The notes beneath the pieces were generated by a model. The model ran no database searches. It had not been told where the DNA came from and saw nothing but the letters and a program-made list of their open reading frames with translations. A stretch of DNA of 59,367 bases from the IMG/VR virus record IMGVR_UViG_3300037244_000010, positions 1 through 59,367 of that record; one strand, 5' to 3'. Below, piece after piece: positions 2,863-40,035 of the stretch. Both the position numbers and the translations under genes were made by a program. Origin of the DNA: a virus. How positions within the stretch are numbered: position 1 is the stretch's first letter; each line of letters begins with the position of its first letter.

Positions 2863-2910
2863 TTGGGCATCAGGACCCAAAACGCTTACAATGTCTGCGA
2901 GGTGACTACC

Positions 2911-14526: not shown

Positions 14527-14565
14527 TGCCCGGCATCCTGCGAAGATGTCGGGCTCTTTTTTGCG
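14527..14565 (+). terminator. Terminator of the small-gene array
   Basis: GCCCGGCATC and GATGTCGGGC form a ten-pair stem, followed by CTTTTTT. A TATACT -10-like box at ~14568 follows directly and may start the next transcript. Confidence 0.85.
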
Positions 14566-15122: not shown

Positions 15123-15205
15123 TGGTAATATCTCAATCGACGGGTACAGAAACAATCTGGCTCGGACGTGACGGCTTATCAAAGCTCAATCGTCCGGGCC
15201 TTTTT
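15123..15205 (+). promoter_or_regulatory. Late promoter/leader/hairpin element, copy 1
   Basis: Extended -10 TGGTAATAT (TAATAT at 15126-15131) is followed after exactly 7 bases by GACGGGTAC (15139-15147), the likely transcript start. Then GCTCGGACG (15160-15168) pairs with CGTCCGGGC (15191-15199), enclosing CTTATCAAAG, and a T5 run follows. The same layout recurs at 23548 and 39956. It precedes the protease-capsid group. Confidence 0.75.
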
Positions 15206-15222
15206 GCGTTTACAGGAGCCAG

Positions 15223-16857
15223 ATGGACGATTTCAGCGTATTTCTCCCGATTGAAAAGGTGGACGCGCAGAGCGGAATGGTCTGGGGCTATGCCTCAACG
15301 CCATCGAAGGACCTGCAAGGGGAGATTGTTCCGCTGGACGCCATCAAGGCCGCCCTCCCCGACTACATGAAGTGGGCGAACATCAGGACCATGCACACCA
15401 ACAATGCCGTTGGCGTGACCAAAGAGGCCCACATTGACGCCAAAGGGCTCTACATCGGTGCCAAGATCGTTGATCCCGCCGCATGGAAACTGTGCAAGGA
15501 AGGCGTCTACAAGGGCTTCAGTATCGGCGGTTCCAAGCTGGAGAAGGTTGGCGATGTAGTAAAGGCGCTTTCCTTACGAGAGATCAGCCTCGTTGACCGG
15601 CCGGCGAACTCCGATTGCCGCATCGACGTATGCAAGATTGCCGGTGGACTCGCCTTTGGAGGGTCGATGGAGAATCAAACCAGTAACGAGACTTTGATGG
15701 AAAAGGCGCTTGACACGTTCCGGACGATTCTCGGAATGGGGAAGATTGCCCTTCCTGACCTTGCCAAAGCCGCACAGGACCCGAATCCGAGTCCTGTTGA
15801 GTCCGACGAACTGACCGCCGATGAGATGGCCACTCTGACCGCCAAGTTTGCGGACGGCGTTGACCTTGAGAAGCGGGAGTTCAGCGAAAAGGAACGGAAG
15901 CACCTCGGTAGCACTGGGGTAGCGCTTCCCGACGGTTCTTTCCCTGTCCAGACCGTGAAGGATCTTGAGAACGCCGTCCAAGCCTTTGGCCGCGCATCGG
16001 ACCCCGAGAAAGCCAAGGCTCACATTGTCACACGCGCGAAAGCGCTGAACGCAACACACCTTCTACCCGCCGATTGGCCGGGCAGCACCAAAGAGGAGAA
16101 AACAATCATGGCTATGGAACTCCAGAAGCGCTTCACGGCGGCAAGCAAGGCGGCCATAAAGAAGGCCGATGACCACATCAAGAAGGCTTCGGCCTCCCAC
16201 GGCAAGGCGGTCGACGAGATTGAAGCCCTCCACAAGTGCATGGGCAAGGCGGCCGACGGCGGCGATGAGTTCAAGAAGCACCTCACGGCGCTTTCGGGAC
16301 ACATGAACGACATTGCCGACCATCACGAACTGGCTCATGCCGCACTCGGCAAGGCTATGACCGGATGGGATGGAGAGAAGGCGGAAACCGACTTGGGCGA
16401 AGAGCCTGCTTCGGAGAACGTGGAAGAGCTTTCCCCCCGGCGCATGACTGAAGGCGAAGTTGAGGGAAACACCTTCCGCGGCGCTGGCGACTCGCCATAT
16501 TCGGCGTCTGCGATTGCGACGATGGTCAAGGCCGCTGTGGCCGAAGCTACCGCCCCGCTGATTGCCGACAACGCCTTCCTCAAGGGTCAGATGTCCGTGA
16601 TTGAGAATCAGCCCTCCGCGGGGCGCCGCCCGAAGCTGTTCGTTGCCAGCTCCACCGGCGATGTGTTCCCGGCCAGCGACGGCAAGGCCGACTTCAACCG
16701 GATGATCAACAAGTCGCTCTCCGAAGCTGACCCGAACGACCAGCGCAGTTCCGAGCAAGCCACGGCGCGCGCTTTCGGCCTGATGTGTACCCCCGGCAGC
16801 GGGTTTGCGAAGTCGATCAACGACCCCAACTTCAAGATTGACCTGGGCGGCAACTAG
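15223..16857 (+). CDS. Prohead protease (XkdF-like) fused to a scaffold-like region
   Basis: A 544-residue product. Residues 1-150 are an XkdF-like prohead protease (VWGYASTPSKDLQGEIVPLD, TMHTNNAVGV, GVYKGFSIGG and EISLVDRPANSDC), with His and Ser as catalytic candidates. Residues ~225-290 hold a conserved module (EFSEKERKHLGSTGVALPDG to RAKALNATHLLPADW) found in several proteases of this type. The remainder is Ala/Lys-rich and helical, as in scaffolds. The protease would cleave scaffold and capsid during head maturation. GGAG lies upstream of ATG 15223. Confidence 0.88.
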   Translation: MDDFSVFLPIEKVDAQSGMVWGYASTPSKDLQGEIVPLDAIKAALPDYMKWANIRTMHTNNAVGVTKEAHIDAKGLYIGAKIVDPAAWKLCKEGVYKGFSIGGSKLEKVGDVVKALSLREISLVDRPANSDCRIDVCKIAGGLAFGGSMENQTSNETLMEKALDTFRTILGMGKIALPDLAKAAQDPNPSPVESDELTADEMATLTAKFADGVDLEKREFSEKERKHLGSTGVALPDGSFPVQTVKDLENAVQAFGRASDPEKAKAHIVTRAKALNATHLLPADWPGSTKEEKTIMAMELQKRFTAASKAAIKKADDHIKKASASHGKAVDEIEALHKCMGKAADGGDEFKKHLTALSGHMNDIADHHELAHAALGKAMTGWDGEKAETDLGEEPASENVEELSPRRMTEGEVEGNTFRGAGDSPYSASAIATMVKAAVAEATAPLIADNAFLKGQMSVIENQPSAGRRPKLFVASSTGDVFPASDGKADFNRMINKSLSEADPNDQRSSEQATARAFGLMCTPGSGFAKSINDPNFKIDLGGN

Positions 16858-16923
16858 ACCGTCCAGCGCAGTTCACAGCGGTTTCAGTTTGTAGTCAGCA
16901 ACTCGGCAATAGGAGAATCTGAG

Positions 16924-18516
16924 ATGAATGAATTCGAGAAGTTCCTGCAAAGCGACACTTTCAAGCAGGCCATTGACGAGCGTGTTGGCACTCTCGCGAA
17001 GGCCGACACTGTTGACCAGAACACGGGGCTGGTGTGGTACGACCTGAGCCGCATCGTTCAGGAAATGCACCCGTTCAAGCAGTTGATTCCGCTGATCTCC
17101 AGCCTCCCCCGCGTCCCCGCCGATGGCGGCACTGCGCACCGTTGGAAGAGGGTCACCGGCATCAACGTCAACAACGTATCCATCGGCGTCCCCGAGGGCG
17201 AGCGCGCGGCCGCTTCCGCCATCACCGTTCAGGATCAACTGGCAAGCTACAAGACCATGGGCCTCGAAGGATCCGTGTCATGGGAAGCCCGTCTGGCCGC
17301 TCTCAACCTCAAGCCCGATGCTCAAGGCGTGACGATTCAGGCCACGCTGCAAGGTGTCATGGTGGGCGAAGAGCAGACGCTCATCGGCGGCAACGCCTCC
17401 ACCCCGCTGGGTATCACTCCCACGCCCACCTTGACCGCCGCCGGCACTACTTCGGCGCTTTCCAATGTTCCCTACTACCTCGTATGCGTTGCCCTCAGTC
17501 ATGCGGGATGGCGTACCGGCAGCATGGCCAACGGCATCCCCGGACAGGTCACGTTGACCAGCACCACGGGAACCATCACCAACGTGGGCGGCGGATCGGC
17601 TCAGCCTTCCGCGCAGGCCACCATCACCCCGACTGCCGGCCAGATCATCACCGCAACCGTTACGCCTGTGGTCAACGCCGTAGCCTACGCTTGGTACTTC
17701 GGGACCACGACCGGCGCGGCCCGGCTCCAGGGCATCACCACCACGAACCAGGCGAAGTTCAGCTCGGTCCCGTCCACCACCAATCAACTGATTACCGCTC
17801 TCCAGGTCAATGGTGCGTATCAGGACAACTCGACAAATACCCTGTTGCCCGATGGCATTCTCAGCCAGATCAACGGTTCCGTATCCGGTTCCGCCCCTGG
17901 CACCGCCATGGCAACCAACCCGAACCTGCCCGTTGTGGCCAGCGGGACTCTCGGATATGCGGGCTCCGGCGCGCTGATCTTCCAAGGCGCCAGCGGCAAC
18001 ACTGGCTTGACCATTGCCGGTACCAGCATCGTCGAGTTCGATGCCGTCTTCCAGGCTACCTACGACCAGTACAAGATTGGCTTTGACCGGATTCTGGTCA
18101 GCTCCACCGACCTGAACTCGAACATCGCTCAGTTCTTGAACACGGCCAGCACCAATAACAGTCTCCGCATGGTGTTTGAGGCGGACTCGGGCAGCGGATC
18201 TCAGATCGTTGCCGGGCGCGCGGTCAACGCCTACAAGAACAAGATCTACGGCAACACTCTGCCGATTGAAACGCATCCCAACCTGCCTCCGGGCACGATC
18301 CTCTTCTGGTCTGATCGCTCTCCGTACCCGCTGAGCGGTGTGGCCAACATCCTCGAAGCGCGTGTCCGTCAGGACTATGTGCAAGTGTCCTGGCCTCTGC
18401 GCACCCGGCGCAATGAGTACGGCGTGTATGTCGATGAGACATTCGCCCTGTACTTCGCCCCGGCCTTCGCCATCCTGACCAACATCAACCAGCCGACGGG
18501 AACCCAGACGTTCTAA
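16924..18516 (+). CDS. Major capsid protein with inserted Ig/FnIII-like domain
   Basis: A 530-residue product placed exactly where the capsid gene belongs, with AGGAG before the ATG. The N-terminal part (WYDLSRIVQEMHPFKQLIPL) and C-terminal part (EFDAVFQATYDQYKIGFDRI, NEYGVYVDETFALYFAPAFA) match an HK97-fold capsid. Residues ~162-365 are different: Thr/Ser/Ala-rich, beta, with a fibronectin-like core (NAVAYAWYFGTTTGAARLQG). I infer a surface domain inserted in the capsid. The 66-bp gap before it and the 74-bp gap after it hold only signals. Confidence 0.85.
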   Translation: MNEFEKFLQSDTFKQAIDERVGTLAKADTVDQNTGLVWYDLSRIVQEMHPFKQLIPLISSLPRVPADGGTAHRWKRVTGINVNNVSIGVPEGERAAASAITVQDQLASYKTMGLEGSVSWEARLAALNLKPDAQGVTIQATLQGVMVGEEQTLIGGNASTPLGITPTPTLTAAGTTSALSNVPYYLVCVALSHAGWRTGSMANGIPGQVTLTSTTGTITNVGGGSAQPSAQATITPTAGQIITATVTPVVNAVAYAWYFGTTTGAARLQGITTTNQAKFSSVPSTTNQLITALQVNGAYQDNSTNTLLPDGILSQINGSVSGSAPGTAMATNPNLPVVASGTLGYAGSGALIFQGASGNTGLTIAGTSIVEFDAVFQATYDQYKIGFDRILVSSTDLNSNIAQFLNTASTNNSLRMVFEADSGSGSQIVAGRAVNAYKNKIYGNTLPIETHPNLPPGTILFWSDRSPYPLSGVANILEARVRQDYVQVSWPLRTRRNEYGVYVDETFALYFAPAFAILTNINQPTGTQTF

Positions 18517-18531
18517 CCTACGGATGGATTT

Positions 18532-18580
18532 ACAATGAGGCAGGCGGCGGCAACCAAACGCCTCCTGCCTTATTTTTTGG
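18532..18580 (+). terminator. Hairpin terminator after the capsid gene, with overlapping -10-like box
   Basis: AGGCAGG pairs with CCTGCCT, extended by GGCG/CGCC, followed by TTATTTTTT. TACAAT at 18532-18537 overlaps its 5' side and could restart transcription. This would reduce readthrough from the highly expressed capsid gene. Confidence 0.7.
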
Positions 18581-18590
18581 AGGGAATGAA

Positions 18591-18857
18591 ATGGTCAGAT
18601 TGCAGTGTCCTGAAGGAAATTCGCAGGTTTCTGTCGATGGCAGGAACTACCAAGCAGACGATACCGGGTTCGTGACCGTGCAAGAGGAGAGTGTCCAGAA
18701 GTTGCAAGCTATCGGCTTCAAGATTTCTCCAGTCAGCATGACGGTGAGTCAAGAGGACTTTGACGCCATCGCCGCGAACGCGAGAAATTTGAACTTGCCA
18801 GTACCGGGCGAAGTCAAGGTTGCGGGCAAGCAGAGCGCGCGCATCAAGGTGGAGTGA
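18591..18857 (+). CDS. Small hypothetical virion-region protein
   Basis: Eighty-eight residues with GGAGGG upstream. A short beta domain (RLQCPEGNSQVSVDGRNYQA, DDTGFVTVQEESVQKL) resembles small capsid-associated proteins placed after the capsid gene. Function inferred from position only. Confidence 0.6.
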   Translation: MVRLQCPEGNSQVSVDGRNYQADDTGFVTVQEESVQKLQAIGFKISPVSMTVSQEDFDAIAANARNLNLPVPGEVKVAGKQSARIKVE

Positions 18858-18861
18858 TCAG

Positions 18862-19695
18862 ATGCCTCATGCGGTTGATTTGACGACATTGACGGACCTG
18901 AAGAACTACATAAGCCCCGCTTTGGGCCAAACAACCGCATCAGATTCAGCACTGGCAAAGATCATCACTGCGGTATCGGACGGCATCAATCGCTATGTAT
19001 CGCGCACCCTGGCTGTGGGAATGTTTGCCGAGGTCCGGAATGGGAATGGCCGGCGCTCAATGCGTGCGCTGATCTATCCGGTCCTGAACGTATCATCTGT
19101 CGTACTGGCAGGATTCTACGGGGAAACAGGACACGTAATCCTCTCGTCTACGAACGGCTCAGCATCTCACCTGTCATGGGACAATTGGTTTATTAACCTA
19201 CGCGATGAGTGCTTCTGGGAAGGTCGTCAGAACATCACTTTGAACTACTCTGGTGGGTTCATGACTCCGGGGCAGCTTGGAGTCCTGACCTTGCCGGGAT
19301 GGACGGCGGCCGCAGTCACCCTGGCCAATGCGCAGATTCAGGTAGGCGGCTTCTACTATGAGGCTGTCAACGGCGGCACGACGGGCGCAACGGCGCCGGG
19401 AACATGGCTCCAGACGCGCAACTCGCTCACGAATGACAACGGCATCTTCTGGAGGTGCGAGGGCGCCATTCCAGTTTTGCCAAGCAATGCGAACATGGTG
19501 CCTGACGATTTCCAGATGGCCTGTATGCAGCAATCGGCGCTGCTGTTCAAGAACAGGACCCGCGTAGGCGATACGGGCTCTGGCGTGGGTCCTGATCGCA
19601 TCAACTATTTTTTGAAGGACGCGCATCCTTCCACAATCTCGATGCTTGACAAGCACCGCGAAGTTTTCCCAACTGACGGCATGGGAACCGTCTAA
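18862..19695 (+). CDS. Head-tail connector (gp6-like adaptor)
   Basis: A 277-residue product from ATG 18862. The N-terminal DLTTLTDLKNYISPALGQTT and SALAKIITAVSDGINRYVSR are the helices of gp6/gp15-type head completion proteins. A middle segment (residues ~150-215, with VGGFYYEAVNGGTTGATAPG) looks like an inserted carbohydrate-binding-style module. The C-terminal FQMACMQQSALLFKNRTRVG is again family-typical. Confidence 0.72.
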   Translation: MPHAVDLTTLTDLKNYISPALGQTTASDSALAKIITAVSDGINRYVSRTLAVGMFAEVRNGNGRRSMRALIYPVLNVSSVVLAGFYGETGHVILSSTNGSASHLSWDNWFINLRDECFWEGRQNITLNYSGGFMTPGQLGVLTLPGWTAAAVTLANAQIQVGGFYYEAVNGGTTGATAPGTWLQTRNSLTNDNGIFWRCEGAIPVLPSNANMVPDDFQMACMQQSALLFKNRTRVGDTGSGVGPDRINYFLKDAHPSTISMLDKHREVFPTDGMGTV

Positions 19696-19718
19696 CTTAG
19701 CATAGGAGAATCATCACC

Positions 19719-20498
19719 ATGGCAAATCTCAATCTCCCTAGTCCCACCGCGCAGCAGAGCGACGTTGTTGCAGCGTTGCAGACCGCAGTGCAGGCGGTTC
19801 CGGTCACTCCCCCCGTGGTTGTGGTCACTCCGCTGGCGCCCGCTTCCACCACTCAAACCTACGCCGTTGTCGCCAAGATCGGGACTCAGACGGTTCCCGG
19901 CACGGCCACGATCACCACCGGCGCAGCCACGCTCTCGGCCGCAGCCTCCAATAACATCTCGTGGAACACCATTCCCGGCGCGGTATACGATGTGTACCGC
20001 ACGGCTGGCGGATCGACGCAGGGCAAGATTGCATCCAACCTGCCCGGCGTGACGCTGAACATTTACGGTGGCCCACAAGCCACGCTCCAGAGCGTTTCGC
20101 TGGTGGATACCGGTCTGTCCGCAGATGGCTCTACGGTCCCCGGATTCAACACCAGCGGGACCCTGGCGCATGGTTTGGTTGAGCCCGTCCAGGTTCTTGC
20201 GGCAAACGGCGCCATCTCGCTCGTGACGGGCAACGTGGTCATTACCAAGGGAAGCGTAGCGGCCATCACCCTGCCTCAGCCCATTGCAGGTTCTGCGCAG
20301 TCTGGTGGGCAGGACGGCGCATCGCTGACCGTCACGACCACCACAGCGTATGCGCACACCATCACCACGGCAGCGAGCGGCATCAACGGGACCCTGCATA
20401 TTGCCACGTTCACGGCGGGCGCGGGAAATTCCGTCACGTTCACGGCTTACAACGGAGAGTGGTACGCAACGACTCTCAGCGGCGTGGCCATCAGCTAA
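19719..20498 (+). CDS. Putative capsid decoration protein
   Basis: A 259-residue product. Residues ~35-130 form an FnIII-like domain (NNISWNTIPGAVYDVYRTAG). The C-terminal ~90 residues (ITLPQPIAGSAQSGGQDGAS, NSVTFTAYNGEWYATTLSGV) are a beta trimer-type fold common in head-decoration and fibre tips. AGGAG upstream. Position among head completion genes supports a virion surface role. Confidence 0.6.
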   Translation: MANLNLPSPTAQQSDVVAALQTAVQAVPVTPPVVVVTPLAPASTTQTYAVVAKIGTQTVPGTATITTGAATLSAAASNNISWNTIPGAVYDVYRTAGGSTQGKIASNLPGVTLNIYGGPQATLQSVSLVDTGLSADGSTVPGFNTSGTLAHGLVEPVQVLAANGAISLVTGNVVITKGSVAAITLPQPIAGSAQSGGQDGASLTVTTTTAYAHTITTAASGINGTLHIATFTAGAGNSVTFTAYNGEWYATTLSGVAIS

Positions 20499-20500
20499 GC

Positions 20501-21097
20501 ATGGACATCACCCTAGAAGGCGGCAAGCGGCTCTCTGCACGGTTGGATCATATGGGTCCTGCCATCAGAACGGCCGCGCGCCGCCAACTGGCAAACATCG
20601 GCGAGCACCTGGCTAGATACGGGCAACAGCACTTCAAGGAATCAGGACTCAAGAAACGATCTGGAAATCTCGCTGTATCTATGGCTGCATTGCCAGTTGA
20701 GGAAGACGAGCACAGCATTACTGGCGGAATGATGGTCGGCAAAGGACTCAAGTACGCAAAGGCCCAAGAATATGGTGCCGAGATCGATGCGCAATCAGGA
20801 CACATGTTGGCAATACCGATGGAAGACGCACTGACCCCCGCTGGAGTTGCAAGATTCGCACCTCGGGACGCGCAGTCTGAAGGCGCTTATGATCGAATCT
20901 TCTTCTCAAATGTGGGCAGCAACGTTTACATGTTCGGCGTGAAAGACGGCATCGTTCACCTGCTTTTCGTTCTCGTGCATCACGTTTCAATCCCGGCGCG
21001 GCCGTTTGCGGGTCCTGCTCTTGACGCCAACCGGGCATGGATTGAAGCGAGACTAAAACAAGCGGTCGATGAAGGAATCAAGGAGTCGGGAGAGTAG
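20501..21097 (+). CDS. Neck/tail completion protein (HK97 gp10-like)
   Basis: A 198-residue product from ATG 20501. The N-terminal GGKRLSARLDHMGPAIRTAA and later YAKAQEYGAEI are typical of the HK97 gp10/minor structural family. The C-terminal ARPFAGPALDANRAWIEARL is the usual PFLxPA helix. It would join head and tail. Confidence 0.75.
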   Translation: MDITLEGGKRLSARLDHMGPAIRTAARRQLANIGEHLARYGQQHFKESGLKKRSGNLAVSMAALPVEEDEHSITGGMMVGKGLKYAKAQEYGAEIDAQSGHMLAIPMEDALTPAGVARFAPRDAQSEGAYDRIFFSNVGSNVYMFGVKDGIVHLLFVLVHHVSIPARPFAGPALDANRAWIEARLKQAVDEGIKESGE

Positions 21098-21099
21098 CC

Positions 21100-21678
21100 A
21101 TGTTCTACAACGATCCGAGAATCGGGATGGTTCAGGGAGATCTTCACAAGGCCGAAGACGAAGACGGCTCATGGATCACTATGAACGGGACGCATGTCCA
21201 TATGAAAGACGGAGAAGTGGATAAGGGGCCGCAGAAGGTCAAGGACCACGTCGCCGGCAAGAACGCAGAGAAAGCAAAATCTGCTGAGCCAAAAGCGATG
21301 CCGAAACTGCAAGGATCGGAAAAGCAGATAGCTTGGGCCGATAACATTAGAGATCGACGCATCAAAACCATCAATGATCTTCATCAAATCAACGTAAGAC
21401 GAGTAGAGAATGATCGCAAAGATGATGGCGGCCATACTCCATCTACCGATAGAATGCTAGAAGCGTCAGAGAGAGCGAAAGCGGACATGATGGATCATAT
21501 CGCTTCTCAAACCGACGCACACGAAATCATCGAGACAAGAGACAGGGCCCCCTATGACCGCATGATGTTTTCTCGGTTTAGTGAGCACTACAACGCCATC
21601 AAGAACGGGACCACTCCGAAATCATTTGGTGCCCAATACCCAAAAGGTGACCGAGAATTCATGCCGGAGTACGACTAA
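21100..21678 (+). CDS. Hypothetical protein with MFYxDxRxGM N-terminus
   Basis: A 192-residue hydrophilic product. It begins MFYNDPRIGMV, a leader shared with the gene at 22487, and contains WITMNGTHVHMKDGEV, a short motif seen in phage proteins of the W-x-T-x-x-G-x-H-x-x-x-x-DG style. The rest is charged and helical. Base composition is more AT-rich at the 3' side. Function unknown. Confidence 0.6.
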   Translation: MFYNDPRIGMVQGDLHKAEDEDGSWITMNGTHVHMKDGEVDKGPQKVKDHVAGKNAEKAKSAEPKAMPKLQGSEKQIAWADNIRDRRIKTINDLHQINVRRVENDRKDDGGHTPSTDRMLEASERAKADMMDHIASQTDAHEIIETRDRAPYDRMMFSRFSEHYNAIKNGTTPKSFGAQYPKGDREFMPEYD

Positions 21679-21680
21679 TG

Positions 21681-21902
21681 CTAAAATCTTTTGCCTTTAA
21701 TCCCGCTTGCAGGACCACTGTAAAGTACAGATCCGCGATCAGACATGACCTTGATGGAGATGTAATCTTTATCGCTGCATTGATGGATATTATCGGCCAG
21801 CACTTTGTGGAGTTGTGCGCGATCCGGAATCGAATCAATTATCGTGGATACTGGATAGTAGGCTGGGTAGGAGGGATCGTTGCGGGTAATAGTCAGCTTC
21901 AT
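21681..21902 (-). CDS. Minus-strand moron protein
   Basis: Seventy-three residues from ATG 21902, with GGAGAAAG just upstream. It is a single gene opposed to the head-tail operon with its own TTGACA promoter, the same design as 10171-10494. It contains PVSTIIDSIPDRAQLHKVLA. Family unknown; likely expressed under repressor control. Confidence 0.65.
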   Translation of the reverse strand: MKLTITRNDPSYPAYYPVSTIIDSIPDRAQLHKVLADNIHQCSDKDYISIKVMSDRGSVLYSGPASGIKGKRF

Positions 21903-21950
21903 GTCTTTCTCCAACGCCTCTGGTTGAGGCTGTTTCTCAGGTACAAACTG

Positions 21951-21995
21951 AGTTTATCAAACCCTATGAGAATGTCAAGCAATTTGTTTATTAAA
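21951..21995 (-). promoter_or_regulatory. Moron promoter with operator-like sites
   Basis: On the minus strand, TTGACA (21978-21973), a 16-base spacer and TAAACT (21956-21951). The -10 box lies in TTTGATAAAC (21952-21961 reversed), and TTTAATAAAC lies just upstream (21986-21995 reversed). This repeats the 10.5-kb design. Confidence 0.7.
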
Positions 21996-22012
21996 TGCGT
22001 GGAGGCTTGCTG

Positions 22013-22483: not shown

Positions 22484-22486
22484 CAA

Positions 22487-23539: not shown

Positions 23540-23544
23540 CAACC

Positions 23545-23627
23545 TGATACACTTTGTATCGACGGGTACTCAAGCACTGAGGCTCGGATGGTTCTGGTTT
23601 GATAAGCCAGCACTGTCCGGGCCTTTT
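23545..23627 (+). promoter_or_regulatory. Late promoter/leader/hairpin element, copy 2
   Basis: Extended -10 TGATACACT (TACACT at 23548-23553), a 7-base gap, then GACGGGTAC (23561-23569). GGCTCGGAT (23581-23589) pairs with GTCCGGGCC (23615-23623), enclosing a CTGG/CCAG hairpin with TTGATAAG in its loop, then TTTT. It precedes the sheath gene and has the same spacing as copies 1 and 3. Confidence 0.75.
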
Positions 23628-23656
23628 CACGTTTGGCGGCAAAGGAGCGGAGAAAT

Positions 23657-25966
23657 ATGAGTTTCTTCCATGGCATTACAGTAACCGAGGTCAACACCAA
23701 CGGCGTATCGATTCAGGTGGTCAACTCGGCAGTTATTGGCCTCATCGGCTCGGCTCCGCAGTGGTCGGCATCGTCTGGAGCAGGACCCGGAATCAACGTC
23801 CCGACGCTCATTCAGTCCGCCGCGCAGGGCTCGGCGTTTGGCAAGCAGATTCAGGGTTATACGATTCCTGAAGCCCTTGCGGACATTCAACTCCAGGGCG
23901 CGGGGGCCGTCATCGTCATCGACGTGTTCAACCCACTGCTCCATCAGAGCACCTTTGCGACCAATCCCTTGACAGGACCCGCATCCAACAGTGTGCCGGT
24001 AACACTCGGTCACATGGGCCTAATTGGTCCAGGCTTGCCCAACACTCCCCTTTCTACCGCTTCGGTTGACACCGTGGCGCAGGCGGGCGGCGCGGCAAGC
24101 CACAGTTATGCAACAGGCGACACGATCACCCTCGCGGGTGGAACGGCGTCAACTCCCGCGGTCCTGACCGTGGCGACAACGAAGCTCGTATCGCTGGCGG
24201 TGAATGCCCCCGGCGGCGCTACATCGCACAACTACGCAGCCGGCGACAGCGTTACGCTGGCAGGCGGAACCGCTTCGGTTGCTCCTCAACTCACCGTTAC
24301 CTCCACTCAGGTTACGGGCGCAACGGTTGCGATCGGTGGAAGCGGCGGCACGAACGGGACTCAAACTGTGACCGGAACGACTGGCACCGGGACACGCTTT
24401 CAGGCTTCTGTGACTGTGGCCGGTGGCGCGATTACCGCGGTCCTGTCGATCTCTTTGGCTGGCTCCTACTCCATAAACCCCACGGCTCCCGCTCTTGAGC
24501 CTGTGACGGGCGGTGGACTGGTTGGCGCCGAACTGGCAATCACTCTGGGCGTGGCCACCTTCAACATCGTCAACGCGGGTAGCTTCACCGTGAACAGTGC
24601 CGCGCTGACACAGGCAAGCTCAACAGGACTCGGCACCGGGGCAACCTTCAACCTTGGCGTCTTTGGAGTCCTGACGGCCACGGTATCCACTGCGGGCAGC
24701 TACTCGGCTGTCCCGGCGAACCCTGTAGCTCAGGCCAGCACCTCGGGCAGCGGCACCGGTGCCACTTTCAATGTGACCTTTGCGGGGCCGCCTACCACTG
24801 TCGTGGTCAAGAACCAGGCCGGCTCGACGACCTACGTCGAGGGCACTGATTACACCATCGATTACGTGAACGGCCTGCTCTACACCAAGAGCGGCGGCGC
24901 AATCACCTCGGCGCAGGCATTGCAGGTCTCCGGCGCCTACTGCGACCCGTCCAAGGTTGCATATACCGACATCATCGGGACCGTGACCGGAAGCACCTAT
25001 ACCGGCATCCAAGCCTTGCAGACCACCTTCCAGACGATGGGCCTGTTCGCCAAGCTGCTCATCACCCCAACCTTCTACGATGCGTCAACCAGCGCCAACC
25101 TGCTGGCCATGGCGACGAAGCTCCAGGCCATCTCGTTCACCGACGCGCCCCCGAACACGACTGTGGCAACCGCCATCGCCAACCGCGGAGCCGCCGGCAA
25201 TGCCTTCAATCAGGCCAGCGACAGGCTCGCGCTCACCTTCCCTTGGCAGTTGAAGACTCCCACCGCCATCATCCCCACTGGCGTTGTGGTGAGCGCGCAG
25301 GGAAACATCGGCTATACGTCCGTGACTGGCACCGTGGACACGCCGTATAGCACGTGGGTAGCTGGCGCTACGGCAGCCAGCGATATCGCCAATGGCTTCT
25401 GGTTCTCGCCGTCGAACACGGTCATCAACGGTATTCTGGGTCCCGATGTCAGCCTATACATGAGCGCCTACGACCCGACTTCAGACACGAACGCGCTGAA
25501 CGCGGCTGGCATCATGACGGTCTTCAACGGCTTCGGTACCGGCTACAGGACATGGGGCAACCGCGCATCGAGCTTCCCGTCGAGCGGCGCAGTGACCACG
25601 TTTATCGCCGTTCGCAGGACCCTCGACGTTGTGGAGCAGAGCATCCAGTACAGTTCGCTGCCCTTCGCCGATAAGCCCATCACCAACGGTCTCATCAATT
25701 CGATCTTGCAGAGCGTGAATGGGTTTATCAACTCGCTCATCCAGCAGGGCGCATTGATTGCCGGAAGCGCGGTCACCTACAACCCGGTTGACAACCCCCC
25801 TGCGAGTCTGGCGAATGGGCAACTCACGTTTGAAGTAAGCGTGATGCCGCCGCCGCCGGCCGAGCAGATCATTTACAACTTCTCCATCAACACCAGCCTG
25901 CTTGCGAACCTCGGGGCATCCGTAACGAGCACCAGCACAACCAGCAACTTCAACGTGACCGCATAA
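23657..25966 (+). CDS. Tail sheath protein with inserted repeats
   Basis: A 769-residue contractile sheath. The N-terminus (HGITVTEVNTNGVSIQVVNS) and C-terminus (FGTGYRTWGNRASSFPSSGA, FIAVRRTLDVVEQSIQYSSL) are diagnostic. Residues ~140-375 are an insertion with two AGGxxSHxYAxGDxxTLAGG repeats and three GSYSxxPxxP...SGTGATFN-type repeats, probably displayed on the tail surface. Contraction drives DNA injection. Start ATG 23657 follows AAGGAGCGG. An in-frame ATG at 23633 lies in the leader. Confidence 0.95.
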   Translation: MSFFHGITVTEVNTNGVSIQVVNSAVIGLIGSAPQWSASSGAGPGINVPTLIQSAAQGSAFGKQIQGYTIPEALADIQLQGAGAVIVIDVFNPLLHQSTFATNPLTGPASNSVPVTLGHMGLIGPGLPNTPLSTASVDTVAQAGGAASHSYATGDTITLAGGTASTPAVLTVATTKLVSLAVNAPGGATSHNYAAGDSVTLAGGTASVAPQLTVTSTQVTGATVAIGGSGGTNGTQTVTGTTGTGTRFQASVTVAGGAITAVLSISLAGSYSINPTAPALEPVTGGGLVGAELAITLGVATFNIVNAGSFTVNSAALTQASSTGLGTGATFNLGVFGVLTATVSTAGSYSAVPANPVAQASTSGSGTGATFNVTFAGPPTTVVVKNQAGSTTYVEGTDYTIDYVNGLLYTKSGGAITSAQALQVSGAYCDPSKVAYTDIIGTVTGSTYTGIQALQTTFQTMGLFAKLLITPTFYDASTSANLLAMATKLQAISFTDAPPNTTVATAIANRGAAGNAFNQASDRLALTFPWQLKTPTAIIPTGVVVSAQGNIGYTSVTGTVDTPYSTWVAGATAASDIANGFWFSPSNTVINGILGPDVSLYMSAYDPTSDTNALNAAGIMTVFNGFGTGYRTWGNRASSFPSSGAVTTFIAVRRTLDVVEQSIQYSSLPFADKPITNGLINSILQSVNGFINSLIQQGALIAGSAVTYNPVDNPPASLANGQLTFEVSVMPPPPAEQIIYNFSINTSLLANLGASVTSTSTTSNFNVTA

Positions 25967-25976
25967 GGAGCGCACC

Positions 25977-26498: not shown

Positions 26499-26501
26499 TA
26501 A

Positions 26502-26798: not shown

Positions 26799-26843
26799 AG
26801 GCCGGCCACAACCATAGCCAAGCACTGGCGTGAGGTGATTCAA

Positions 26844-27227: not shown

Positions 27228-27229
27228 GC

Positions 27230-31724: not shown

Positions 31725-31731
31725 GGTAAAA

Positions 31732-32715: not shown

Positions 32716-34002
32716 ATGCCGGTCATAATCCCCGCGAACTCGTTCCCGCCGGCCACCGGCACTCCTCAGACAGTTCCCGTTGACCTGCCCACGCCTTCAT
32801 TCGTCAACGACTCAGACGGACTCGATGCAACGCTGGTCCTGAACGACATGGTGAGCAAGTTCGAGACGGACACCAGCAGGACCCTCTACCCGGCCCAGGT
32901 CGAGCAGTTGCTTATCAACCTCTACGCCTACCGCGAGATTCTGGTCCGGAACGCGATTCAGTATTGCGGACTTCAGAACCTGCTCGCATTCGCCGTCTAC
33001 CCGATGCTGGACTACCTCGGCGAGTATCTGGATTGCACCAGGCTTCCCGCGCAGTACGCCACCACGACATTGCAGTTCACGCTCACGGCCGCACAGTCGT
33101 CCGACACCACGATAGCCTCTGGCACGCAGGTCGGGACTCAAGACGGCCTCAACATCTTCGCCACCACCTCGGCGCTCACGATTGCTGCCGGGCAGACGGT
33201 TGGCACCGTAGCGGCGCAATGCACCACGGCAGGACTCAGCGGCAACGGCTACCTCGCCGGACAGGTCAGTGTCCTGATGGGCTCGTTCCCGCTTGTCTCT
33301 GCTGTCGCCAACACGACGACCCCGGCCAACGGAACTGACGGTGAACCTGCTGGCACTACCGCAGGAGACAACCACTACCGCACGCGCATTCAGGCAGCCC
33401 CGAACAATCTCACGACCGCCGGCCCGTCTGGCCAGTACCGATCTCTCGCGCTTGACGTGAGTTCGACCATCGTTGACGCGCAAGTCCCGACAAATCCGAC
33501 AACGCCGGGCACGGTGCAGGTCTACGTCCTGACAGGACCCGTAACGCAGCCGTCCGCATCCCCAAACAGTTCTGGCATCGCATCCGGTACTCTACTTTCC
33601 GCTGTTCAGTCGGCGCTCAGCGCGCAGACTGTGAGGCCTCTTTGTGATACCGTTCTAGTCTCGGCAGTGACCGAAGTTGATTACACCGTGACCGGGGCGA
33701 TCACACTCTACGCGAACGCCAACTATGCGACGATTGCCGCTGGAATCACCGCAGCGGCGCAGAATCTTGCCTTGACGCTCGCTGCAAATATTGAGCAGGA
33801 TATAGTCCTGAGTCAGTGGCAATCGGCTCTCAGCGTGTCGGGGGTCTACGACATGCAACTGACACTTGCTGCGAACATCGGCGGCACACCACTCACTCCA
33901 ACTTCGGACGGCAGTTTCTTGCTCACAGCGGGACAATGGGCGAACTGCATAGGCATCAACCTCACAATCGTTATGGGCACAAAAAATCAGCCAGTTAGCT
34001 AG
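32716..34002 (+). CDS. Baseplate protein gpJ-like
   Basis: A 428-residue product. YPAQVEQLLINLYAYREILV, the AVYPMLDYLGEYLDCTRLPA block and a middle beta domain with SGNGYLAGQVSVL match the P2 gpJ / Mu gp47 family. It joins wedge and fibre attachment. Confidence 0.92.
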   Translation: MPVIIPANSFPPATGTPQTVPVDLPTPSFVNDSDGLDATLVLNDMVSKFETDTSRTLYPAQVEQLLINLYAYREILVRNAIQYCGLQNLLAFAVYPMLDYLGEYLDCTRLPAQYATTTLQFTLTAAQSSDTTIASGTQVGTQDGLNIFATTSALTIAAGQTVGTVAAQCTTAGLSGNGYLAGQVSVLMGSFPLVSAVANTTTPANGTDGEPAGTTAGDNHYRTRIQAAPNNLTTAGPSGQYRSLALDVSSTIVDAQVPTNPTTPGTVQVYVLTGPVTQPSASPNSSGIASGTLLSAVQSALSAQTVRPLCDTVLVSAVTEVDYTVTGAITLYANANYATIAAGITAAAQNLALTLAANIEQDIVLSQWQSALSVSGVYDMQLTLAANIGGTPLTPTSDGSFLLTAGQWANCIGINLTIVMGTKNQPVS

Positions 34003-34021
34003 TCCACAAGGAGACTTCAGC

Positions 34022-37000
34022 ATGAAACGAATTGCGCCCTTTCTTTTCCTGATCTTGTCAGTTATCACATGCTTTGCTCAGACCCAGATTGACCCGACTT
34101 ACCAGATTCGGTGGAACGCTCTTGCTTATCCTGGCGCGCCTGCTGCAAACGGGATCACATGCACCCAGAACGGAAACTACGCGATTTATCCTTACGGCGC
34201 AGAGTGGGGGCAGTCTTATCAGGACACGACGAATAATGTCGAGTACAAATGCACAACATCTGGATGGGTGAAGAATCTACCCACGACAGGCGGCACGCTG
34301 ACCGGCCCACTCAACGGCACCAGCGCATCGTTCTCAGGCACCGTCGCGTCTCCCGCCATAGTGCCTACCAATATCACTCCCAGTACGTCTCCAATCTGTG
34401 CCAACGGCACAGGCGGGGCACTTACAACTATGGGGTGCGGTGGTGCAGGCGTAACGCAGATCATACCTGGGACAAACGTCACCATTTCGCCTAGTGGGGG
34501 CACAGGTGCAGTAACAATCAACAGCACAGGCGCTGGCTTGCCGACAAACGCTGTAGTTGCGTGGGCTGGTGATTCACGGTTCTGGGTTTCCGGATCCAAT
34601 TCCTCCGCTGGCACTGCGGAGGGATCGATTACTTCTGGCTCTGTATCGGGCGGAGTACTGACTGCCCAGGTCGGTAATCTGTCAAACTCGACTCCATCTT
34701 ATGCGGGCACAATCTATAAACTTTATGGATTCACAGGCGCATACGCTGCCTTGAACGGTCAACATGTAACGGTCACTTCGGGCTCATCCTCACAGTTTGT
34801 GGCCACCGTGACCGGCGTCTCTGATGGCACGACGGTTGGAACAGGTTCGTTCATTGCCGATAGTATGGCCTTTGCAGTGTTTGGTACTAAACTTCCAAGC
34901 ACAAGCAGTTCTGTTTTTGTGGATGTTAGTACAGGTGTCGAAACTACCACAGATACCTTTATTGCCGCCTATCTATCAAAGCTGCACCCCATTAGCCCGG
35001 CTGTGACCGGATCGACAGGCTATCTGGTGCTGCAATTGGGCATCAACGATATTGTGACGCTGGAAAGCGCCTCTGCCGCTTATGTTGAAAACAACTATCT
35101 AACGATATGGGCAATGGCTCATGCCGATGGCTGGAAGATCCTCCAGACATCACTGATACCATATGGCACAGATCAGGGGCGGCTCTCCACAATCAATGAA
35201 GTCAACCTTTGGCTCCGTGGACGTTCCCCACAGGATGCAGTAACCAACAGCCAGAACTGGGATATCTTTGACGATGTTGCTCAGATACTTCCCACCGACA
35301 CGGATGCAGCGGTCTTTATGCAAACCGGCTCGCCCAATCCTCACCATTTGAACGATAGTGGAAACAACTTGCTGGCCGCATCGGTGGCGCAGGGCTTATC
35401 CTCCCCGCTCTCTTCTTTGTATTCTCTCAATGCTGATTACAATTTTGGATTAAACTGGGCGCTCATCAACGGAGGCACCCTTACCAACCAAGGTCTTATA
35501 GTGGGGAACAATGCATCTATATCACCCATCGGTAACGGTAGCATCGCGGCAACCTCTTTAGACGGTGTCACGGTGTCCGGCACACCTACTCCAGGGCAAT
35601 CTGTGATTGCTTCTGGGTCTACCTCAGCAGTGTGGGGGTATGTACCCTGTGGATACAACGATATTCCATGCACTGATGCTGCTAATAGCTGGTTTGGAAC
35701 TCAGACGTACACTACGTCTGGCCCTGCCTCACCAGCCGTAATCGAGAAAGGCTCCGCTGGTGCGATCTCTTCGGTGTTTGTGCAAAGCGCATTTGTCAGT
35801 ACTGGTTCTCCCTATACTCTGTCTTTCACGTCCCCTGTAACCGCTGGCGATACACTGCTGGTGTTTGAGACATCAGACTATGGCACAACAATCACAGACA
35901 CTCTGGGTAACACCTTCACTGGTGTTCCCGGATGTGGGACTAGTGGCTGTGGCAATCCCTTTTCGACCGCGATGGCCTATAGCGCAACTGGCGGGGCAGA
36001 TACAATAACTGTAACCCCATCTTCGTCACAAAGTTTTTATGTCTTGATTGCTGAGTACCGCGGTCCCCTATCTGTATCTCCTCTGGATGGTACTCCAGCT
36101 AACACAGACAACAACTTTAGCACCGGCTCAGGCGGCGCAACTACAGTCGGTCCTATAACCACTGTGGCGAACGGTGATTTGATTATCACCGCTACATCCA
36201 CGGACAACAATCTGGGAGCCCCTAGCGTTGCAGGATTCACAGCACGTGATTCCACCGATAAACTCAATCTTTACGACACAATACAAGTCTCGGCAGGGAA
36301 CCAATCCGCTGCTTGGAATTGGGCTACGGGTTATGGACGGTCAGTAGGTACTCTGTTCGCGCTCAAAGCACAAACCCTCTCAGGTCAAACCGCCGACTTG
36401 CATCAGTATGAATCAGCTGCGGGAGCCTTGGTAGGCGCGGTGAACGCATACGGGCAAATCCAACTTCCTACTGCCTCCAACTTACCAACCAACACCCCGG
36501 TTGACTCTGGTGTTGCGCTTGCGGCGGACACTACCTGCACGAGTTTACTGGCGGTCTACACCGGAAGCGCGTGGGAGTGCCTGCCAAGTAATCCTGGCAC
36601 AGTAACCAGCGTAGGCTTGACCATGCCGGGAGTGATTTTCAATTCCACGGTGCCTGGCTCTCCTGTGACGACATCTAGTACACTAGCACCAACTCTAGCA
36701 ACACAGACAGCAAATACTGTGCTGGCCGGTCCTGCGACCGGAAGCCCGGCAACGCCTACATTCCGAGCGTTGGTGAGCGCCGACATCCCAAACAATGCGG
36801 CGAGTACCACAGGCACAGCGGCTAATCTGAGCGGCACACCCGCCTTGCCCAACGGCACGACGGCCACGACTCAGAGCGTGGCGGACAACAGCACGAACCT
36901 GGAAACCACTGCGGGAACACTAGCTAAGATTACGGCCAAAACCTTGAGTTTGAATGTCCCTGCTTGGCTGCAAAATCTAGGCGACGGCTCGGACGGTAAC

Positions 37001-38374
37001 AATCTGACCGCCTATGCGGCCCTGACCGGCGACTTGTACTACAACAACTTCACCGTGCCGTATGGAAACACGGTAACAAGCAGTGCATACCAAGGTAGCC
37101 TAACCATCCATGCAAAAGGTACCTGCACGATTGCGGGATTGATAACCAGCACGAATAATAACTATATAAGTAACGGCCTTTATGGCGGGTCTTCCGGTGC
37201 AACTGGCGGGGGAACGTCGGCGGGTTCTGCGGGCAAAAGCACTCTCGGACCGCCTGGGATGAGTTCTTATGTCTGGGGCGGTATCACTATTGGAGCCGCG
37301 GGGCAAGCGGGAGGCGGTTCCGCATGGTCAGATCAAGCGCTAACTGGCGGAGCTTTGACAGAGTGGGCAAGAGTGGTTGCTACAGCTGGAGGAGCCACGG
37401 ACGGGCAATTCCTAGGCGGTGCTCCGAGTGCGGCAGGAACTAGTAGTTCTCAAGGTTCGGGAGTTACTCTGATCTGCGGCTCGATTGTGGGCACCGATGG
37501 TACACACACCGGCATCATTGATATGAGTGCTTCTCCCTCATCACCTCCTACCGCCAACAACACAGGCGCACAAGCGGGCGGCGGTGGTGGAGTTGTGCTG
37601 CTCTCGTCACAGTCCGCAATCGCCACGCCTCCGCTAGTCTATGTGGCTGGTGGCGCGGCTGCAATCGGCTCCGCCATCCTCACCACACCGGTCAATGGCA
37701 CGTTTACGACAGCGACGACAGGCGGTTCCTTAACAGGTTCCACAAGTTATTACTACACCGTTGTGGCACACAAGGGGCCAAATGGCTCCACGGCGCAGTC
37801 TACCGAAACCAGCCTTGCAACAGGCGCAGGAACCAACACCAATACCATTACTGTAAAATGGGCGGTCGTTCCTGGGGCGCAGAGCTACGACATCTGCGGC
37901 CGCACAACTGGCTCAGAGCAGCTGATTGCGACAATACTGAATAATGGTGCTGGAAATAATCCTCTGGCTACCCAGTATGTGGATACCGGCTCCATCACTC
38001 CTAGCGGAACGTGCTCAACTACAAACACTACATCTGGCTGGTTTACCACGCCGCAGGCCTTGAGCCACGGCGGCACCTGCACAAGTCCTGCCAAGCTGCT
38101 GCTGGGTGTTACCTCTGGCGCTCTCAATGGCACAGCAACGGTGATTCAAGCCGGTGCTGGGTGCGGCACGGGAACTGGAGTGCAATGGAGTGTGTTAGGT
38201 GCTGGCGGAACATTGGGCACAGGCACGGTTAATCCAACATGGTCTGGCGGCTCGGTCGTATCGGCTACCACAACCCCGGGCACAAGCTCAGGCTACACGC
38301 CAGTCAATTACACCGTCTCTGGTGATGGCGGAGATGGCTCCCCGGGCGTAACCGCAACATTTCAAGGATGGTAA
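34022..38374 (+). CDS. Giant secreted-type fibre protein with SGNH-like hydrolase domain
   Basis: A 1450-residue product with a Sec signal peptide (KRIAPFLFLILSVITCFAQT), odd for a virion protein. Residues ~177-460 resemble an SGNH/GDSL hydrolase: AGDSRFW (~182), LGINDIV (~340) and PNPHHLNDSG (~440), where the expected catalytic Asp three before His is Asn. Next come beta domains, a Gly-rich stretch (~1056-1220) like phage adhesin tips, an FnIII-like segment (VPGAQSYDICGRTTGSEQLI, ~1290) and a Gly/Thr-rich end. AAGGAG lies before the ATG. It has no CAGGACYC copy over 4.3 kb and looks compositionally distinct, suggesting recent acquisition. Confidence 0.8.
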   Translation: MKRIAPFLFLILSVITCFAQTQIDPTYQIRWNALAYPGAPAANGITCTQNGNYAIYPYGAEWGQSYQDTTNNVEYKCTTSGWVKNLPTTGGTLTGPLNGTSASFSGTVASPAIVPTNITPSTSPICANGTGGALTTMGCGGAGVTQIIPGTNVTISPSGGTGAVTINSTGAGLPTNAVVAWAGDSRFWVSGSNSSAGTAEGSITSGSVSGGVLTAQVGNLSNSTPSYAGTIYKLYGFTGAYAALNGQHVTVTSGSSSQFVATVTGVSDGTTVGTGSFIADSMAFAVFGTKLPSTSSSVFVDVSTGVETTTDTFIAAYLSKLHPISPAVTGSTGYLVLQLGINDIVTLESASAAYVENNYLTIWAMAHADGWKILQTSLIPYGTDQGRLSTINEVNLWLRGRSPQDAVTNSQNWDIFDDVAQILPTDTDAAVFMQTGSPNPHHLNDSGNNLLAASVAQGLSSPLSSLYSLNADYNFGLNWALINGGTLTNQGLIVGNNASISPIGNGSIAATSLDGVTVSGTPTPGQSVIASGSTSAVWGYVPCGYNDIPCTDAANSWFGTQTYTTSGPASPAVIEKGSAGAISSVFVQSAFVSTGSPYTLSFTSPVTAGDTLLVFETSDYGTTITDTLGNTFTGVPGCGTSGCGNPFSTAMAYSATGGADTITVTPSSSQSFYVLIAEYRGPLSVSPLDGTPANTDNNFSTGSGGATTVGPITTVANGDLIITATSTDNNLGAPSVAGFTARDSTDKLNLYDTIQVSAGNQSAAWNWATGYGRSVGTLFALKAQTLSGQTADLHQYESAAGALVGAVNAYGQIQLPTASNLPTNTPVDSGVALAADTTCTSLLAVYTGSAWECLPSNPGTVTSVGLTMPGVIFNSTVPGSPVTTSSTLAPTLATQTANTVLAGPATGSPATPTFRALVSADIPNNAASTTGTAANLSGTPALPNGTTATTQSVADNSTNLETTAGTLAKITAKTLSLNVPAWLQNLGDGSDGNNLTAYAALTGDLYYNNFTVPYGNTVTSSAYQGSLTIHAKGTCTIAGLITSTNNNYISNGLYGGSSGATGGGTSAGSAGKSTLGPPGMSSYVWGGITIGAAGQAGGGSAWSDQALTGGALTEWARVVATAGGATDGQFLGGAPSAAGTSSSQGSGVTLICGSIVGTDGTHTGIIDMSASPSSPPTANNTGAQAGGGGGVVLLSSQSAIATPPLVYVAGGAAAIGSAILTTPVNGTFTTATTGGSLTGSTSYYYTVVAHKGPNGSTAQSTETSLATGAGTNTNTITVKWAVVPGAQSYDICGRTTGSEQLIATILNNGAGNNPLATQYVDTGSITPSGTCSTTNTTSGWFTTPQALSHGGTCTSPAKLLLGVTSGALNGTATVIQAGAGCGTGTGVQWSVLGAGGTLGTGTVNPTWSGGSVVSATTTPGTSSGYTPVNYTVSGDGGDGSPGVTATFQGW

Positions 38375-38376
38375 AC

Positions 38377-38649
38377 ATGGCAGACTTTGGCAGTTTGACG
38401 ATAAACAGCGACGGCAGCGCGACTCTGAGCGTGACATTTGATATCGCAGGCGTCCAGTGTGACCCATCGCTGGCAGCCAATGACACGGACTTTCCTCTGC
38501 CGGTGCGGGCAGATGGCAACGGTAATATCATCCCTTGGACACAGGCCGCGGCTCAAGCTACGCTGGGGCCACAGATCGCAGCAGCTAAGGCGGCATTTCT
38601 TGCGGCTGCTCCGGAATGGATACCAACCCTCCCTGCATCTGGGGAGTAG
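38377..38649 (+). CDS. Small fibre-associated protein
   Basis: Ninety residues from ATG 38377, two bases after the fibre stop. GSLTINSDGSATLSVTFDIA is a beta motif and the C-terminus is Ala/Pro-rich. Possibly a fibre chaperone or tip partner by position. No family recognised. Confidence 0.5.
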   Translation: MADFGSLTINSDGSATLSVTFDIAGVQCDPSLAANDTDFPLPVRADGNGNIIPWTQAAAQATLGPQIAAAKAAFLAAAPEWIPTLPASGE

Positions 38650-38677
38650 TGGCACAGAACGAAGGCTAGGAGGCCTC

Positions 38678-38734
38678 ATGGCAACACCAATTCCTTGTGC
38701 AGCCACCACACCAAAACCAATCCCCAATAAGTAG
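38678..38734 (+). CDS. Possible 18-residue peptide with strong ribosome binding site
   Basis: TAGGAGG lies five bases before ATG 38678 and an 18-codon Pro/Thr-rich frame (MATPIPCAATTPKPIPNK) ends at TAG. It is followed by a CCGCAG-type hairpin and then gpI. It may be a leader peptide coupling translation to gpI, or a remnant. Confidence 0.3.
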   Translation: MATPIPCAATTPKPIPNK

Positions 38735-38814
38735 CCGCAGTTGTCCGCACTGCGGTGCCTGAGCAGGACCGGCATCTACGATAGAGAGATAGGCCAAAGG
38801 AGGGCCTGAGCAAC

Positions 38815-39948
38815 ATGGCAAACAATCTCAGGCCTGCGTCATCGATCAACGACCTCAGAACTCAAGCGCACATGCAACTATCTGCACGACTTGAGTCGCT
38901 CGACCTGACGCCCCTGCTTATCAGGACTCTAGGAAACAACCTCCCGGCATCCATCTTGCCCTACTTGACATGGGAACTAGACATGATGGTGCCGAGTGTC
39001 CCGATGCAGCAGCTAGGGGCTACGGCGTTAGATGTTATCCAGAACGCCCTACCTCTGCATCGCATCAGTGGCACTCCTGGCGCAATCATCCATGCTCTTG
39101 CCTTGTGCGGCATAACAGCAACGATCTTAGAGGGTCAAGACTCATGGGGAGGTACTTCATATCCAGCCAGTCAAGGATGGGCTGTCTTCAGGGTGGGATT
39201 TACCGGTGCTGGGATGGCCCCCGCTGGACTAATCAACGGAACCAATATGCACTTTGTTCTTCCTGAGACGCCAAACGGTAACTCGCTCCGAGTCTTCTAT
39301 AACGGACTCCTTCTGCGGCCGACGACAGACTATGGAGTTTCAGGACTCAACATGACCACGGCATTCGCGCCGGCTACGAACGCGACGCTCTTGATTGTGT
39401 TTCGCAGCGGCACATCCATCCCACTATATTTCGATGCCATTGTGCCAACAGTCTCAGGCTCAAATCTAACTTTTCCTGAGACGCCGGTCAGCATTGAATT
39501 GTATAAGAATGGCATATTGCAGAGTGGGGGATTGAATGCAAGTCAGCTTTCCGCACTGGAGATCATCGTCAACTTCTTCAAGCCAGCGCGGTGCCTATTG
39601 GATTCCGTTTATGCCTTAGGTGGCAAGGATTACTCGATTTCGGGGAACACGGCGGCGCTGACGGTTGCTCCGAAGTCTACCGACTCGTTCATTGCGTGGG
39701 GAACTTACGCGGGCACAGGCACCGCGCCGAACTACGCTGACTATGTGACGCCGACAGGACTCGTAAACGGCTCCAATACCGTGTTTACCCTTCCCCAAGC
39801 TCCGAGTCCTGCTGCCAGTCTCAGGCTGTACCGAGGATGGCAAGTACTGAAGCCGGGAGGGGTTGACTTCACCTTGAGCGGCGCAACGATCACCTACACC
39901 ATCGCCCCGGCGCCCACGGCCACGCATCTAGCCTTCTACCGCTACTAG
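38815..39948 (+). CDS. Tail protein gpI-like with duplicated receptor-type domain
   Basis: A 377-residue product. Residues 1-110 match P2 gpI (TRTLGNNLPASILPYLTWEL-like segment, HRISGTPGAIIHALALCGI). Two related beta modules follow, at ~137-205 (INGTNMHFVLPETPNGNSLR) and ~310-377 (VNGSNTVFTLPQAPSPAASL), each about 65 residues. gpI normally follows gpJ directly; here the giant fibre gene is inserted between them. AGGAGG upstream. Confidence 0.8.
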   Translation: MANNLRPASSINDLRTQAHMQLSARLESLDLTPLLIRTLGNNLPASILPYLTWELDMMVPSVPMQQLGATALDVIQNALPLHRISGTPGAIIHALALCGITATILEGQDSWGGTSYPASQGWAVFRVGFTGAGMAPAGLINGTNMHFVLPETPNGNSLRVFYNGLLLRPTTDYGVSGLNMTTAFAPATNATLLIVFRSGTSIPLYFDAIVPTVSGSNLTFPETPVSIELYKNGILQSGGLNASQLSALEIIVNFFKPARCLLDSVYALGGKDYSISGNTAALTVAPKSTDSFIAWGTYAGTGTAPNYADYVTPTGLVNGSNTVFTLPQAPSPAASLRLYRGWQVLKPGGVDFTLSGATITYTIAPAPTATHLAFYRY

Positions 39949-39955
39949 GGTGCGG

Positions 39956-40035
39956 TACAATCGGCATTGACGGGTACAGAACCAGTCTGACTCGCCACAT
40001 GACCTTGATAAGAGGATCAGTGGCGAGTCTTTCAC
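39956..40035 (+). promoter_or_regulatory. Late promoter/leader/hairpin element, copy 3
   Basis: TACAAT (39956-39961), a 7-base gap, GACGGGTAC (39969-39977), then GACTCGCCAC (39989-39998) pairing perfectly with GTGGCGAGTC (40020-40029). The enclosed hairpin carries TTGATAAG in its loop, and TTTC follows. It precedes the second fibre and lysis genes. Confidence 0.75.

Follow-up and report, generated by a model that had tools for sequence, protein, structure and literature searches.

A conserved two-hairpin RNA leader at three putative late operons of an uncultivated tailed phage

In the window (the whole stretch of viral DNA analysed here, 59,367 bases of IMG/VR record IMGVR_UViG_3300037244_000010) we found the same structured RNA leader at the head of three gene groups, beginning with the prohead protease gene (a head maturation protease by PHROG match), the tail sheath gene and a 94-aa ORF that is followed by a fibre-like gene. 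The element is a real and conserved RNA leader at the head of phage late operons and has apparently not been described before; that it is a conserved structured RNA we regard as practically certain, and its mechanism we infer. The position before these three groups agrees with an earlier note on this DNA; in each group the leader lies close to the RBS. The gene content, on which the assignment is based, suggests a late regulon.

Each leader is 65-70 bases long and follows the same layout: a -10 box, 7 bases, GACGGGTA, a first hairpin (hairpin I), a second hairpin (hairpin II), a U-rich tail and the RBS. The features in the window are as follows.

14528 to 14563 (+): separate, ordinary intrinsic terminator-like site (stem 14528-14554, then a T-run), about 0.6 kb upstream of the copy 1 promoter
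15123 to 15131 (+): extended -10 of copy 1 (TGG-TAATAT), from the sequence
15139 to 15147 (+): GACGGGTAC of copy 1, presumed transcript 5' end, the start being taken from the 7-nt gap to the -10
15147 to 15159 (+): hairpin I of copy 1 (CAGA-AACAA-TCTG), from compensatory changes in relatives
15160 to 15199 (+): hairpin II of copy 1 (GCTCGGACG...CGTCCGGGC, apex CTTATCAA), from covariation, structure scan and shuffle folding
15201 to 15205 (+): U-tract TTTTT of copy 1; prohead protease start codon at 15223
23545 to 23553 (+): extended -10 of copy 2 (TGA-TACACT), from the sequence
23561 to 23569 (+): GACGGGTAC of copy 2
23569 to 23581 (+): hairpin I of copy 2 (CTCA-AGCAC-TGAG), from structure scan and compensatory changes
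23582 to 23623 (+): hairpin II of copy 2 (apex TTTGATAAG), from covariance model, structure scan and shuffle folding
23624 to 23627 (+): U-tract TTTT of copy 2; tail sheath start codon at 23657
39956 to 39961 (+): -10 TACAAT of copy 3, preceded by CGG and without TGn, from the sequence
39969 to 39977 (+): GACGGGTAC of copy 3
39977 to 39989 (+): hairpin I of copy 3 (CAGA-ACCAG-TCTG), from structure scan and allele comparison
39989 to 40029 (+): hairpin II of copy 3 (GACTCGCCAC...GTGGCGAGTC, apex TTGATAAG, inverted in some relatives), from a held-out model match, allele comparison and shuffle folding
40030 to 40032 (+): short U-tract TTT of copy 3, followed by the RBS GGAGG; start of the 94-aa ORF at 40052

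A -10 box followed after exactly 7 bases by GACGGGTAC had been described before, and this arrangement is indeed present at 15126 (TAATAT), 23548 (TACACT) and 39956 (TACAAT). On both strands of the 59,367 bases GACGGGTAC occurs at these three places only (0.19 copies expected; no shuffle gave three). The spacing to the -10 suggests that transcription starts at or next to GACGG. At the protease locus TGTGGTAATATCTCAATC is the sole upstream block common to close relatives, the alleles diverging farther upstream. Judged on consensus alone, a sigma70-type promoter lies directly 5' of the leader. The earlier note had taken the missing -35 as a hint of an activator; this argument is weak, since the -10 is extended in two of the three copies and since two distant relatives match the promoter consensus with the -35 at 17 bp (TTGACT-17-TAATCT in L392 and TTGACA-17-TAACCT in L401; L and G numbers are our labels for the related contigs and loci compared). 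For the clade of the window the sequence fits a sigma70 promoter that would rely on the extended -10, and an activator is not called for.

The 9-10 bp stems with an inner hairpin that had been reported are present, with TTGATAAG in copies 2 and 3 and CTTATCAA in copy 1, the outer stem being extended by inner pairs. The reported T-run stands for copies 1 and 2 (TTTTT and TTTT) but not for copy 3, where just TTT forms a poor U-tract. Directly 5' of hairpin II, which starts 0-1 nt after it, lies hairpin I, which was absent from the earlier description. It measures 13 nt in the three window copies, with a 4 bp stem and a 5-nt loop; across alleles the loop is A-rich and usually 5 nt long. Hairpin I is not always shown by MFE folding in copies 1 and 2 and was revealed by comparison. 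Folded by itself, each leader RNA is more stable than all of its 200 shuffles (z-scores of -4.0, -4.1 and -6.5). No start codon is common to the leaders, as a leader peptide would need. A fourth copy did not turn up in the window, whether the covariance model was run unfiltered or structures were scanned for blindly.

In the contigs of close relatives the promoter and the flanks are kept and the interior of the leader is replaced. For instance, the hairpin I stems read CTCA/TGAG, CAGG/CCTG, CCAA/TTGG and CTTG/CAAG at the sheath locus and CAGA/TCTG and CAAA/TTTG at the protease locus, and stem II also varies between such alleles. We counted alleles and not contigs, many of the latter being near-identical. 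In nine alleles of the protease and sheath loci, compared over 18 pairs, 95.7% of the cells are paired and 23 cells are double-changed versus 7.7 after shuffling (none of 500 shuffles was as high), while slid structures are paired for at most 59%. An enlarged alignment, which was fitted to the model and is therefore biased toward the structure, and of which four rows are reverse-strand reads of the palindrome, gives 94.7% paired cells, 102 double-changed cells versus 29 shuffled and slid controls of at most 49.7%. In a hand alignment of 15 alleles, picked with the hairpin in mind from three loci and at least six lineages, hairpin I is paired for 96.7% versus 56% with shuffled partners and has 13 distinct stems; the nine-allele covariation and the held-out model matches given below are cleaner evidence. 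In all 15 alleles the 8 bases directly after stem II include 4-6 T. Hairpin I is shortened to 3 bp in L400 and at the protease locus of G004. Covariation in relatives, the absence of which the earlier note had named as part of what would refute it, is present in both stems.

A covariance model (R1) was trained on the protease and sheath loci, leaving out the fibre locus and the L256 allele, and scanned against the window and the retrieved loci of relatives. It matched the held-out copy 3 at the fibre locus of the window (E 1.4e-6), the L256 allele (4.6e-14) and loci in the distant phages L399/G005 and L401/G006 (7e-6 to 2e-4); a model search of related phages had been proposed earlier as a check. 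In both of these phages the leader sits immediately 5' of the protease homologue, which has 52% identity in G005 and, in two parts, 65% and 47% in G006. The same architecture is also found before protease genes at 49-60% identity. By eye, the same layout precedes the protease genes of L392 (G004), L394-396 and L397/398 and, more weakly, that of L400; before protease homologues with less than about 49% identity or with partial matches (L403-L445) no leader was seen by eye. The fibre-locus leader is present in two distant genomes, G004 and G005. The one in G004 came up, together with the three window sites, in the blind structure scan, which was given no sequence motif and looked for a long stem with a T-rich tail and a 4-bp hairpin directly against it. 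The sheath-locus leader is absent in the distant relatives and was seen in the close clade of the window only. The compensatory rewriting of both stems, a model that finds the other locus and the conserved order of promoter, leader and gene bear out the suggestion of an RNA element.

In L394, L395 and L396 a TTGACA promoter-like site and the protease gene are separated by two tandem terminator-like hairpins, which have near-identical outer stems (GCTCGAC...GTCGGGC) and lie about 100 bases ahead of the gene. G001 carries the leader at both contig ends (44-116 and 60976-61048 of 61,059 bases), which suggests the terminal overlap of a circular assembly. The pattern GACGGGTAC(13)CTCG gave many chance matches in viral and genome collections, those in genome contigs being chance-like as well. 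No Rfam family reached its gathering score in the window, and at the three leader sites only chance-level hairpin models (microRNA type) were obtained.

The apex of hairpin II did not hold up as a conserved RNA feature: the orientation of TTGATAAG flips between near-identical alleles and its core is enriched genome-wide on both strands, which rules it out as a strand-specific RNA recognition motif. The 19-nt apex GGGCCTTGATAAGAGGCTC of the fibre-locus leader in L316 is exactly inverted as GAGCCTCTTATCAAGGCCC in L312, and the GGACC form of the apex is likewise inverted in L318 (exact 19-bp inversions, L312 and L318 versus L316 and L310). TTATCAA/TTGATAA occurs 31 times in the window versus 3.5 expected from a second-order Markov model (about 9-fold), on both strands and mostly in genes, and TTATCAA is also enriched in G001-G005 and less so in G006. 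The simplest account of the flip is an inversion via the inverted repeats of the stem itself; as far as the available text of the literature goes, small inversions of hairpin apices arising from stem inverted repeats are known in chloroplast DNA. Another heptamer, TCAGGAC/GTCCTGA, is dispersed over both strands of the window (82 versus 9.3 expected), an excess that is limited to its close clade (G001-G003) and not found in G004-G006; its role might be that of a Chi-like, modification or packaging motif.

At the fibre locus of L341 (3800-4010) TACAAT and the RBS are kept and the leader is missing. It was likely lost by deletion, because short CTTTG repeats bound the fibre-locus leader in relatives. 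Copies 1 and 2 are present in 3300045780_000007, from the same sample, and our guess, judging by their lengths, is that the two contigs belong to one genome. Such an empty allele, the exact inversion of the apex between alleles and the enrichment of the TTATCAA core on both strands could also point to an element that acts as DNA, be it a protein-binding palindrome, a cruciform or a small mobile or invertible hairpin. We consider this very improbable: the U-tract is strand-specific and the distance to the -10 fixed, two separate hairpins covary and are read in gene orientation, and the empty allele is explicable as a deletion between the CTTTG repeats.

For the RNA leader, we prefer a reading as a conditional promoter-proximal terminator (attenuator) that is opened late by an antitermination factor, and we rate it as somewhat short of probable. 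Each of the three late operons would be transcribed from its sigma70-type promoter, with the start at or next to GACGG, and the new transcript would fold at once into hairpin I and then into the GC-rich hairpin II with its U-rich tail, where most transcripts made early would stop or pause after about 65-70 nt. Later in the infection the polymerase would be let through into the structural genes by an antitermination factor that the phage encodes or recruits from the host; this factor might act through hairpin I, much as N of lambda does through boxB. We infer the termination, the factor and the timing, and attenuator, antiterminator target or protein-binding leader, as listed in the earlier note, is still the right short list. 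A terminator-like gate after the promoter is favoured because the U-rich tail occurs in every lineage and because in L394 the second of the tandem stems, followed by TTTTT, lies between promoter and gene. A leaderless allele with promoter and RBS, as in L341, is expected for a regulatory gate rather than for an essential part. Against strong termination, the U-tract of the fibre locus is short or interrupted (TTTCAC; TATTCC in G005) and a simple terminator scan does not call any of the three hairpins, so that termination may be weak at this locus. The 3-bp hairpin I of L400 and of the protease locus of G004 also counts against the attenuator.

Hairpin II might instead be the terminator of the operon upstream, with the promoter just before it by chance and with constitutive read-through. 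At the sheath and fibre loci this agrees with the lack of any further terminator after the preceding gene and ahead of the leader. At the protease locus the preceding operon can do without hairpin II as its terminator, because a separate terminator-like hairpin is found upstream in several relatives (directly before the promoter in L297, L299 and L347), as is also the case about 0.6 kb upstream in the window. Neither hairpin I nor the fixed spacing between promoter and leader would be accounted for, and we regard this explanation as quite unlikely. The hairpins also lie at the presumed 5' end and near the RBS at all loci, and it is the stem that matters while its sequence is free, as might be seen in a 5' mRNA stabiliser or translation-enhancing leader that shields the 5' end, keeps the RBS free and yields more structural protein. 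This too seems unlikely to us; it explains neither the A-rich loop of hairpin I and its abutment on stem II nor the U-tract right after stem II in every lineage.

As to the factor that would open the attenuator, a PHROGs and Pfam scan of part of the ORFs gave no recognisable antiterminator of the N, Q or NusG type, the Q families being diverse, and no small Arg-rich conserved protein stood out; this counts against the attenuator. The window further encodes a ferritin/Dps-like protein (2863-3408, +; PF00210, E 7.7e-25) and an 873-aa chain with helicase (SNF2/DEAD, Helicase_C) and N6/N4 DNA methyltransferase domains (46869-49490, -).

The covariation of this structured RNA is unusually clean; the leader is absent from Rfam and was found from raw sequence, in an uncultivated group of tailed phages without a cultured close relative. 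If it is a gate, one leader design would serve three late operons of a phage at once. The unit from -35 to RBS is short (about 110 bp), and natural variants are at hand in the form of rewritten stems, inverted apices and one leaderless allele. It is conceivable, though in our estimate doubtful, that this two-hairpin leader represents a phage RNA family not described before. It would then control several late operons of one genome in parallel by processive antitermination, using either a new factor, possibly of host origin, or no factor at all, and would do so in a widespread group of uncultivated myoviruses of soil/peat type.

Several known systems resemble the leader. Riboswitch, T-box and ribosomal-leader attenuators in Rfam likewise are structured leaders ending in a terminator-like hairpin; no ligand-binding core or leader peptide of the kind is evident here. 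Hairpin I shares with the boxB of lambdoid nut sites its small size, an A-rich loop of five bases, a variable stem and the place near the transcript start. BoxB has a GNRA-like pentaloop, whereas the loops found here include AACAA, AGCAC and ACCAG, and hairpin I is always directly followed by a terminator-like stem; no boxA was recognised by eye in the leaders. For lambda-type late promoters and AlpA-controlled genes, the available text of the sources describes a late promoter, a short leader and an intrinsic terminator before the genes (PMC6606751, PMC9371919). In the systems of lambda and phage 21 Q and of Pseudomonas AlpA an intrinsic terminator takes the place that the terminator-like stem has here, between late promoter and late genes. 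Lambda has one such late promoter and the window three, and, compared with lambda-type Q, the leader has two covarying hairpins and a terminator stem at about 20-60 nt from the start. The GC-rich stem with U-rich tail is found in 15 of 15 alleles, though the simple terminator scan does not call it in the window and it is weak at the fibre locus. Among the scanned proteins no Q was recognised; the protease-locus alleles differ upstream of the -10/discriminator, where no Q-binding element was identified, and by eye the first 20 bases share no -10-like pause motif.

HK022 putL is a promoter-proximal element of about 70 nt with two adjacent stem-loops (PMC9378689), a plan that is matched here at the transcript start, the two adjacent stem-loops lying within about 75 nt of the inferred start and the leader being repeated at the head of each multi-kb operon. 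The leader might therefore be a put-like cis-acting antitermination RNA, the hairpins of which would bind the RNA polymerase leaving the promoter, with no protein factor, and would make it resistant to pausing and termination over the full length of the long late operons. We give this explanation a small chance. In put, nothing depends on a U-rich tail such as the one conserved here right behind stem II, and a stem with a U-tract seems counterproductive in an antiterminator. In HK022 (AF069308) model R1 has no significant match near putL or putR, and its best match falls in the late leader region, on the terminator-like hairpin that comes right after Q, which speaks for the terminator character of the leader. 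Membership in HK022 put itself we reject on this absent match and on the 4-bp hairpin I, as opposed to the long, bulged, triplex-forming stem I of put. The put sites belong to early operons, have different stems and no U-tract requirement, whereas the leaders described here precede putative late operons. If they act as gates, they would extend the paradigms of lambda pR'/Q and HK022 put to a new group of phages.
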